Of a stretch of 64,000 bases of DNA, positions 29,638-43,115 are shown piece by piece. Below the pieces are notes generated by a model. The model was not told the origin of the DNA, ran no database searches, and saw only the letters and a list, made by a program, of their open reading frames with translations. The stretch's first letter is position 1; each line of letters opens with the position of its first letter. The position numbers were made by a program, and so were the translations under genes. The stretch is from Alphaproteobacteria bacterium (GTDB lineage: Bacteria > Pseudomonadota > Alphaproteobacteria > Geminicoccales > Geminicoccaceae), in contig JALSGP010000002.1 of the NCBI GenBank assembly GCA_026982705.1, positions 1 through 64,000 of the forward strand. Reading direction: 5' to 3'.

Positions 29638-30147
29638 TCAACCGGCCTGGAACGGATGGTGGGTCTTGTCCTTGAGCGCCACCACCTTGGCCGCCGGCGG
29701 ATAGCCGTTGACGGCGCGCTCGATGGCGAGCTTGGTGGCCTCGTAGTTGTACTGCTGGATCTTGGCGTCGTCGTCGGCCTCCCAGTGGATGAACACGCCG
29801 ACGCAGATGAAGATGTCGTCGGCCTCCTCCACCGGGATCACGCCCTCGGCCACGCAGTCGGCCACCGCCATGGCCACCGCCCGCTGGGCCGGGCCGAACA
29901 TCTGCGTCGCCTGCTTGGCGTTCTTGATGGTCACCTTGTTGAACATGACGGTGGCCGGCTTGACCATCAGATTGGGCTCCAGCACCGCCAGCAGCGCGTT
30001 CACGCCCTCCTTCTGGTCGCAGAGGGTACGGGCGAAGACGTCTTCGGCCGGCGTACCGCGCGGACCCATGACGAGGTCGATGTGGGCGACCTCGTTGCCT
30101 TCGCCGACGAGGGCCTCACCGACGAGCATGCGATCGATCTTGGGCAT
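29638..30147 (-). CDS. fae: Formaldehyde-activating enzyme
   Basis: Fae condenses formaldehyde with tetrahydromethanopterin to methylene-H4MPT, the entry step of the H4MPT-linked oxidation route in the cytosol. The 169 residues match the family over the whole length: [22 protein letters not shown], with the conserved His at 22, then [37 protein letters not shown] and [16 protein letters not shown]. The ATG at 30147 follows GGGAGGACC. It lies 15 nt after the CitG-like gene in an operon with the MptN-like ligase. mch, mtdB, fhcABCD and the RFAP synthase are not in this window. Confidence 0.97.
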
Positions 30148-39679: not shown

Positions 39680-39754
39680 TCTCGGGTCATCCCTCCGTCT
39701 TGCAAGACCTCGGGCGGCTTCCCACCTCGCGGAGGGGATCGGGAGGCTGCGGCC

Positions 39755-40645
39755 GTGAGCGGGACGGAGCGGCGGGGGCCCGTGGTCGAGAGCGTCGCCA
39801 CCCTGGCCGAGCTGCGCGAGCGCATCCCCGCAGCCGAGGGCGTGCCCACCGGCGTTCCCGGTCTCGACGAACTGTTCTTCGTGCCGGAGTGGCGGGACGG
39901 CCGCCTCCACCGGCGCCCGCTCGGCGGGATTCCGCGCCACGCCGTCCTCCAGGTGACGGGCGTGGCCGACACCGGCAAGAGCCTGCTGGTGGAGCAGTAC
40001 GCGGTGACACGGGCGGCGGCGGGCGAGACGGTGGCCTTCGTCACCATGGAGAGCCCCGCCCCCTTCACCGCCATGGGCCTGCGCACCCGGGCCACGGCGC
40101 TGGGGCTCGACCGGGCGGCGGTGGAGCGGCGGGTGGTGCTGCTGGACGGCGCCACCCACACGGTGCTGGCGCGCGATCTCGCGGCGCTGCTGGATACCCT
40201 CGCCTTCGCCATCCGCACCCATCGAGTGTGCCACGTGGTGCTGGACTCGCTGACGGGCCTGTTCGAGGCGCGGGAGATGCTGGCCCGCGACGTGGTGCGG
40301 CCTCTCTTCGGCTTCCTCAAGACGTGGCACCAGACGGCGCTCCTGGTCTCCCAGAAGCGGAGCGGCCACGAGGCCCTCACCGCCGAGGCGGCCGGCGGCT
40401 ACGCCGTCGCCCACATCCTCGACGGCTCGCTGGTGCTGGCCAAGCATCCGGTGCTCTCGCCGCAGGCCGCCCGCCTCCACCGCGTCCCGCTCGGCGAGAC
40501 GGTGCGGCTCTTCCGCATCGACGGCTGCCGCCTCGCCGGCCACGACACCCGCACCCACCACTGCGAGATCGGCCCGGACGGCATCCTCAGGATCGGCCCG
40601 CCCCTGACCCGCACGGTGGCGGGCGGAGAGGAGGAGGCATCGTGA
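39755..40645 (+). CDS. KaiC-like RecA-family ATPase
   Basis: The 296-residue single-domain protein is of the KaiC/RecA type. It has VPTGVPGLDELF (the KaiC-style 'TGIPGLD' start, about 30-41), Walker A VTGVADTGKSLL (near 68-79), the glutamate-bearing strand TVAFVTMESPAP and Walker B VCHVVLDSLTGLFEA near 160-174. It has one domain, so it is not the double-domain clock KaiC. Such single-domain KaiC proteins with a small adjacent partner are known mainly from archaea. GTG 39755 follows GGGAGG by 8 nt. It overlaps the next gene by 4 nt (GTGA). Confidence 0.82.
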   Translation: MSGTERRGPVVESVATLAELRERIPAAEGVPTGVPGLDELFFVPEWRDGRLHRRPLGGIPRHAVLQVTGVADTGKSLLVEQYAVTRAAAGETVAFVTMESPAPFTAMGLRTRATALGLDRAAVERRVVLLDGATHTVLARDLAALLDTLAFAIRTHRVCHVVLDSLTGLFEAREMLARDVVRPLFGFLKTWHQTALLVSQKRSGHEALTAEAAGGYAVAHILDGSLVLAKHPVLSPQAARLHRVPLGETVRLFRIDGCRLAGHDTRTHHCEIGPDGILRIGPPLTRTVAGGEEEAS

Positions 40646-41046
40646 TCGAGATTCCGCCGCGGCCCCGGGACGTGGACCGCGAGGCCCTCCAGGTGTTCCT
40701 CGCCGCCATCGACCTCCTGGGCGGGCCGCGCGGTCTCGTGGAGCACCGTCGGCTCACCTGGCTGCCGAGCCTGATGGAGGCGGCCTATGCGGTGGTGCTG
40801 GCGGAGCGTCATCACTGGTCGGCCGACGACATCGCCGCCTTCCTCGGCCTCTCGCGGCAGGCGGTGCGCGCCATGCTGCAGGCCTCGCCGGAGCGGGTGC
40901 GCGAGCGGCTGCGGGCCGGCCCGTCCGCCGAGGACGAGCGCCGCCGCCCCCACATCGCGGGCGGCCTCGCCCGCCTCGCCTTCGCGCGAGGCCGTGAGGA
41001 GACCGGAAGTGGCGGCGACGGCGGCGGCACACCGGAGGCGCGTTAG
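40642..41046 (+). CDS. Small HTH protein, partner of the KaiC-like ATPase
   Basis: The 134-residue protein has a central helix-turn-helix-like segment, AERHHWSADDIAAFLGLSRQ (about 48-67) followed by AVRAMLQASPERVRERL, then a Gly/Arg-rich tail. The segment TWLPSLMEAAYAVVLAE before it resembles the 'near-KaiC' regulatory domain described beside archaeal KaiC homologues; I make that link from memory. GTG 40642 overlaps the KaiC-like stop, and AGGAGGAGG precedes it. It probably works with the ATPase as a DNA- or protein-binding regulator. Confidence 0.72.
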   Translation: MIEIPPRPRDVDREALQVFLAAIDLLGGPRGLVEHRRLTWLPSLMEAAYAVVLAERHHWSADDIAAFLGLSRQAVRAMLQASPERVRERLRAGPSAEDERRRPHIAGGLARLAFARGREETGSGGDGGGTPEAR

Positions 41047-42372: not shown

Positions 42373-42762
42373 ATGGAGACCCTCTGGATCGCCCTCGGCA
42401 GCGCCCTGGGCGGCGTGGCCCGCTTCGCCCTCTCGGGCCTGGTGGCGCGCGGCATCGGCGAGACCTTCCCCTTCGGCACCCTCGCCGTCAACGTGCTGGG
42501 ATCCTTCGCCATCGGCCTCTTCGTCGCCGTCACCGGCCCGGACGGGCCGCTGCTGGTGGACCCCCGCCTGCGCCGGGCCTTCACCCTCGGCGTCTGCGGC
42601 GGCTTCACCACCTTCTCCTCCTTCAGCCTGCAGACGCTGGCGCTGCTGCGCGACGGCGAGTGGGGGCCGGCCCTGGCCAACGTGCTGCTGTCGGTGGTGG
42701 GCTGTCTGCTGGCGGTGTGGGCCGGCTGGGCACTGGGCGTGCGGCTCGGCCGAGCGGGGTGA
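42373..42762 (+). CDS. crcB: Fluoride channel CrcB/FluC
   Basis: The 129-residue protein has four membrane helices and the Fluc signatures GGVARFALS (14-22), GTLAVNVLGSFAIG and GGFTTFSSFSLQ. CrcB forms a dual-topology dimeric channel that lets fluoride out of the cell. I looked for a fluoride riboswitch in the 100 nt upstream and saw no match to the conserved core. It is followed after 8 nt by the DUF190 gene, a common pair. Confidence 0.95.
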   Translation: METLWIALGSALGGVARFALSGLVARGIGETFPFGTLAVNVLGSFAIGLFVAVTGPDGPLLVDPRLRRAFTLGVCGGFTTFSSFSLQTLALLRDGEWGPALANVLLSVVGCLLAVWAGWALGVRLGRAG

Positions 42763-42770
42763 GGCATGAC

Positions 42771-43115
42771 ATGAAGATTCCACACGAAGCCCTTCTGCTC
42801 CGCATCTTCGTCGGTGAGAACGACCGCGTGGACGGGCGTCCCCTCTACGAAGCCATCGTGCTGGAGGCGCGCCGCCGTCATCTCGCCGGCGCCACCGTGC
42901 TCCGCGGCCCCATGGGCTTCGGCCGCTCCAGCCGGCTCCACACCGCCAAGATCCTGCGCCTTTCCGAGGACCTGCCCATGGTGATCGAGATCGTCGACGC
43001 CGAGGAGCGGATCCGCGCCTTTCTCGCCGCCATCGAACCGATGATGACGGGCGGCCTCGTCACCCTCGAACGGGTGGAGGTGGTCCGTTACGGCGGCGAC
43101 GAGCCGGACGGGTGA
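42771..43115 (+). CDS. DUF190 (PII-like fold) protein
   Basis: The 114-residue protein matches DUF190: LLRIFVGENDRVDGRPLYEAIVLEARRRHLAGATVLRGPMGFG at the start and DLPMVIEIVDAEERIRAFL in the middle. The fold is PII-like, and such proteins often accompany crcB, probably as a cytosolic regulator or partner. The precise role is unknown. The ATG at 42771 follows GTGAGG. The 3' end overlaps the convergent GNAT gene by 28 nt. Confidence 0.9.
   Translation: MKIPHEALLLRIFVGENDRVDGRPLYEAIVLEARRRHLAGATVLRGPMGFGRSSRLHTAKILRLSEDLPMVIEIVDAEERIRAFLAAIEPMMTGGLVTLERVEVVRYGGDEPDG

Follow-up and report, generated by a model that had tools for sequence, protein, structure and literature searches.

The 64,000-nucleotide stretch of alphaproteobacterial DNA analyzed here (the window) carries two overlapping genes, one for a single-domain KaiC/RecA-type ATPase and one for a small helix-turn-helix (HTH) partner, and these two families are nearly obligately linked wherever the pair occurs. 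We give about even chances to the reading that the pair is a two-gene regulatory module of thermophiles, in which an ATP-dependent oligomer would gate a co-translated HTH regulator during heat or energy stress. The two genes are laid out as follows.

39755-40645, + strand: KaiC-domain ATPase gene, TIGR03878 thermo_KaiC_2 (296 aa; GTG start at 39755, TGA stop at 40645)
40642-40645, + strand: GTGA stop/start overlap, ATPase TGA over partner GTG, with GGAGGAGG just upstream
40642-41046, + strand: partner gene, near_KaiC_dom TIGR03879 (134 aa; GTG at 40642, TAG at 41046), all-helical with a predicted HTH

A preliminary description had named the pairing of a KaiC homologue with a near-KaiC partner. 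This assignment proved correct, since both proteins scored above the curated cut-offs in NCBIfam profile searches: the ATPase reached 374.5 bits against TIGR03878 (cut-off 232.2, 257 of 259 model positions covered) and the partner 89.5 bits against TIGR03879 (cut-off 65.1). The coordinates, the motifs and the segment TWLPSLMEAAYAVVLAE reported for the overlapping 134-residue protein were all confirmed as well. The same search, which had been suggested as a check, placed the ATPase best in a KaiC-domain family and not in RadA/Sms, which was absent among its NCBIfam matches; every NCBIfam family other than TIGR03878 stayed below 48 bits, and the Pfam KaiC family (PF06745) matched at 146.7 bits. 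No PADLOC anti-phage model matched at E<=0.01. Codon-position GC was coding-like for the ATPase (0.77/0.51/0.95) and for the partner (0.83/0.55/0.91), and full-length relatives in other phyla shared 66-70% and 58-61% identity with them, respectively; along with the two scores, these figures speak against a fortuitous resemblance. The pair had also been said to lack a described function, and we found no paper naming TIGR03878 or TIGR03879 in the literature searched; the term 'undescribed system' was too strong, because NCBI had already curated and named both families in NCBIfam. New here are the co-occurrence counts in two phyla, the sole alphaproteobacterial carrier with its congener relic, the grouping with HRbin24 and Thermomicrobium, the non-association with Fae (formaldehyde-activating enzyme) and the GC-rich 16S genes of carriers, together with the thermophile-like proteome of the window genome.

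GGAGG-type ribosome sites precede both start codons. Together with the GTGA overlap, they bear out the operon-like arrangement proposed earlier and suggest that translation of the partner is likely coupled to that of the ATPase. The same gene order and overlapping genes are found in the NCBIfam pair of Thermomicrobium roseum (WP_012642838.1 / WP_012643312.1) and in HRbin24, with overlaps of 4 and 8 bp, respectively, and their proteins are 66-70% (ATPase) and 58-59% (partner) identical to those of the window; unlike these, the window host is an alphaproteobacterium. One further element lies ahead of the operon.

39697-39708, no strand: perfect 12-bp palindrome GTCTTGCAAGAC; lies 58 bp upstream of the start of the ATPase gene

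This palindrome is present as a single copy in 464 kb of the window genome, where palindromes of equal length occur at 0.86 per kb. It was not found in the relatives, no conserved operator was detected upstream of the operon, and we regard it as a weak candidate for an operator. Farther along the + strand (42373-43115), a CrcB-type fluoride channel gene is followed by a DUF190 gene, an order kept in the congener G007 and in the relative G016.

The ATPase open reading frame contains the TGVPGLD motif and the following elements.

39959-39982, + strand: Walker A GVADTGKS, residues 69-76; all 39 homologues have D72, K75 and S76
40043-40054, + strand: TMES segment with E99, which profile alignment places on the catalytic glutamate of KaiC; invariant in 39 homologues
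40235-40258, + strand: Walker B VVLDSLTG; D164 invariant in 39 homologues
40349-40423, + strand: family-hallmark loop SQKRSGHEALTAEAAGGYAVAHILD, residues 199-223, aligning with the KaiC ERxxG..LEEYVSD region; 202-214 predicted disordered
40511-40558, + strand: FRIDGCRLAGHDTRTH, counterpart of KaiC KxRGxxH (profile alignment); R254, C258, R259, H263 and D264 invariant

Because the Walker A lysine and serine, Glu99 and Asp164-Ser165 are invariant among the window ATPase and its 38 aligned relatives, the enzyme is likely to be catalytically active. Structural matches of its AlphaFold model (mean pLDDT 87) include the CI domains of KaiC and PH0186, a KaiC-like protein from archaea. Fold, Walker motifs and the position of the inter-subunit motif are common to the window ATPase and circadian KaiC, and a circadian or timing device could be imagined from the KaiC fold. 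However, circadian KaiC has two domains (CI-CII), whereas the window ATPase has one and no CII kinase domain, and the circ_KaiC score is 24 bits against a cut-off of 546, which makes a timing role scarcely credible; nor are KaiA and KaiB in evidence.

Profile-profile alignment with KaiC-type proteins of other genomes places the invariant RIDGCR..GHD on the KaiC KxRGxxH motif, which contacts ATP from the adjacent subunit. A metal site at GCRxCGHD...H was also considered and was weakened: at position 261, the second Cys of the C-terminal GCRxCGH of the TIGR03878 family, just 26 of the 39 sequences have Cys and the window ATPase has Ala, and for this reason the inter-subunit interface reading of the motif is preferred. 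The same type of alignment identified residues ~42-55 as a family-specific insertion, modeled as two strands that likely form a hairpin. As for the hallmark loop, the conserved SQKRSGHE..AEAAGG stretch is predicted to be disordered alone, as would fit a loop that folds upon binding a ligand, a partner or nucleic acid.

This loop sits, strictly conserved, at the position equivalent to that of the DNA-binding loop carried by RecA, and it bears on another explanation, namely that the pair is a DNA-maintenance accessory of thermophiles, with a RecA/RadA paralogue that modulates recombination like archaeal SSO2452 and an HTH protein that targets it to DNA. The RecA-superfamily fold and the thermophile bias of the pair are in keeping with this explanation, as is the presence among the ATPase matches of SSO2452 (PDB 2w0m) and RadB, each with a single RecA-type domain. 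Their similarity is marginal, however, the RadB scores of 19-28 bits falling far under cut-offs of 172 and 278, and genes for recombination or repair do not recur beside the pair; we consider a maintenance role rather unlikely.

The partner was modeled as an all-helical protein (mean pLDDT 81) with two features of note.

40822-40878, + strand: predicted HTH, helices 61-68 and 72-79 (structure model; Pfam matches across partners)
40945-41010, + strand: conserved H-x-AGG-x-A-xx-A helix, residues 102-123; H104, A106, G107, G108, A110 and A113 invariant

The HTH noted in the preliminary description was recovered as this helix pair and in Pfam searches at E<=0.01, in which 26 of 38 aligned partners matched Sigma70_r4_2 and 25 matched HTH_23; the window partner itself gave sub-threshold Pfam matches only. 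All 38 matched TIGR03879. The HTH is flanked by two patches of strong conservation, LTW.pSLmeAaYavVL and H.AGGlAklA; TWLPSLMEAAYAVVL and HxAGGLAKLA are conserved surfaces of the pair. The structure search found no solved structure resembling the whole partner, and its best match to a DNA-binding protein was weak (E 0.5). Sigma70_r4_2 is the commonest Pfam match, and sigma region 4 is also matched weakly by structure. The small protein could therefore act like sigma region 4, or as an anti-sigma target, and be sequestered by the ATPase in a transcription device of the partner-switching kind. This reading is improbable, as the match spans the HTH only and the partner has neither region 2 nor a core-binding part. 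Weak similarity to the ParB HTH in 6 of 38 members, along with one copy of the pair on a T. roseum megaplasmid, would suit a DNA-partition or nucleoid-organizing pair of an ATPase and a ParB-like HTH protein. The ParB matches are not significant, though, the ATPase is of the KaiC and not the ParA type, and for most of the copies sampled no plasmid location is known, which makes partition more improbable still.

In the regulatory module that we favor, the ATPase would form a ring or filament of the KaiC/RecA type. Its conformation would depend on bound nucleotide, which RIDGCR..GHD would read from one subunit to the next, and the HTH partner, in physical contact with it, would be released, held or loaded according to the nucleotide state. 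If the nucleotide state governs the partner in this way, ATP status or heat stress would be converted into DNA binding and altered transcription of target genes. This reading is favored by the invariant catalytic residues, the KaiC-type fold, the HTH matches across partners, the near-perfect co-occurrence and the thermophile-like genomes of carriers; counting against it are the failure to find a conserved operator, the weak structural match of the partner to DNA-binding proteins, and those genomes in which the two genes are apart or the partner is missing. A related family is TIGR03877 thermo_KaiC_1 (Ph0284 / UPF0273; PDB 2dr3), which likewise has a single KaiC domain, although the window ATPase reaches just 46.8 bits against its 307-bit cut-off. 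Members of this sister family presumably have their own near-KaiC neighbor; we take PF1931 to be of the Ph0284 type and PF1931/PF1932 to be a TIGR03877 plus near-KaiC pair. In Pyrococcus furiosus, the KaiC-domain protein PF1931 and the predicted transcriptional regulator PF1932 are strongly heat-shock-induced and have predicted Phr sites (PMC10746257). More broadly, it has been proposed that KaiC-like ATPases serve archaea as signaling hubs (Makarova et al. 2017, as cited in PMC5847659). Their partners and functions are mostly undescribed, and the pair represents a minimal, thermophily-linked, two-gene bacterial version.

The two families co-occur almost perfectly in other genomes, in agreement with the earlier proposal. 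In the phylum of HRbin24, TIGR03878 was found above cut-off in 9 of 301 genomes and TIGR03879 in the identical nine (G317, G368, G406, G444, G450, G476, G492, G500 and G508), with adjacent genes in 9/9. For random draws, an identical set of nine has odds of ~2e-17, a value that is too small, as the genomes share ancestry. We infer that this phylum is Chloroflexota, because in several of the positive genomes the pair and its surroundings are similar to those of T. roseum. In a second bacterial phylum, that of the MAG S5B7_HD70 (147 genomes), the ATPase was detected in 29 genomes and the partner in 28 of these, being missing from one. Sixteen of the 28 pairs lie side by side, five leave room for ~1 gene between them, one is separated by 4 kb and on the other strand, and six are on separate contigs. 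Most second-phylum partners have an extra C-terminal region of ~80 residues (consensus LGIxWPxEVLxRIKG), which is absent from the window partner and from most Chloroflexota-type partners. The partner was the sole neighbor family recurring across the lineages compared; no conserved third gene was found beside the pair in these lineages, and no phage or viral carriage was found. Given this near-obligate two-gene linkage, the question of partners is directly testable with two small proteins.

Among 289 Alphaproteobacteria sampled, only the window genome passed TIGR03878, and none of the 30 other members of the host's family had an intact ATPase copy. The congener G007 retains an ATPase relic (G007:C4:2993-3313; L009 ~1500-1820) that corresponds to residues 113-218 at 48% identity and is devoid of the N-terminal half, including Walker A. 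No partner match was found in G007, and its relic reads, from the sequence, as gene loss; neither ATPase relic nor partner was found in two further congeners. With one alphaproteobacterial carrier and a congener whose copy has decayed, a natural gain/loss comparison is at hand. Empty-site comparison showed that CrcB, DUF190 and MBL genes are conserved in the congeners, and a clean insertion point is not recognizable because the region is rearranged and the upstream genes differ.

In a tree of bacterial sequences, the window ATPase shares a clade with those of HRbin24 and of Thermomicrobium type (support 100/96), and the partner groups likewise with HRbin24/Thermomicrobium in a tree of the same scope (SH-aLRT 99, long branches). 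The simplest account of the matching trees would be that both genes were transferred together, either from thermophilic bacteria or along with them, then lost in congeners. The pair's base composition is that of its surroundings, which makes a recent transfer unlikely. The preliminary description had pictured an archaeal-type device moved directly into this alphaproteobacterium. As the immediate source, a direct import from archaea is not supported: the nearest relatives of both proteins, among the bacterial sequences sampled, are of thermophilic-type bacteria, and the evidence points instead to a unit common to such bacteria. The T. roseum pair, whose ATPase is 66% identical to that of the window, resides on a 918-kb megaplasmid (NC_011961.1 256639-257918; L198) that is a possible transfer vehicle. 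The T. roseum partner is annotated merely as 'hypothetical protein', and DUF1156, DUF499 and DUF3780 genes lie a few kb away, one of them labeled anti-phage-associated.

Carriers of the pair are associated with thermophile-like genomes. Six carriers had 16S genes of 61.5-65.7% GC compared with 54.0-63.2% for eleven non-carriers from the same phyla (one-sided Mann-Whitney p ~3e-4, phylogeny ignored and some 16S genes partial). No 16S gene was found in the assembly of the window genome, and tRNA GC was not used alone as a temperature index, the tRNAs being too few. The IVYWREL fraction was 0.440 for the window genome (~464 kb), 0.429 for the relative G022 (16S GC 63.7%) and 0.395 for the relative G005 (16S GC 58.9%). 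Growth temperature relates to this fraction F as 937F-335, which gives ~78, ~67 and ~35 C, respectively; the absolute values are unreliable because the genomes are GC-rich, and their order is informative. Composition thus suggests that the window organism is probably heat-loving. TIGR03878 is presumably described, by its family label, as occurring in thermophiles, and a genome that we take to be that of C. aurantiacus is pair-negative, so presence would not be universal among them. A bolder version of the regulatory reading, possible in our view but doubtful, sees in the pair a self-contained switch for heat or energy stress. It would move as a unit between unrelated thermophiles, would have been acquired by this alphaproteobacterial lineage as the lineage moved to high temperature and would be decaying in congeners. 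If true, it would represent a widespread bacterial KaiC-based stress-response system without prior experimental description.

A tie between the pair and archaeal-type C1 cofactors had also been proposed. One other gene in the window bears on it.

29650-30123, - strand: Fae, formaldehyde-activating enzyme (238 bits), genuine

Fae is absent from all 38 further genomes that have the ATPase, and 7 of 30 family relatives have Fae without the ATPase. The link was rejected on these grounds; the presence of Fae and the KaiC pair in the same window is a coincidence. Within the host's family, Fae is patchy, being present in 8 of 31 genomes.
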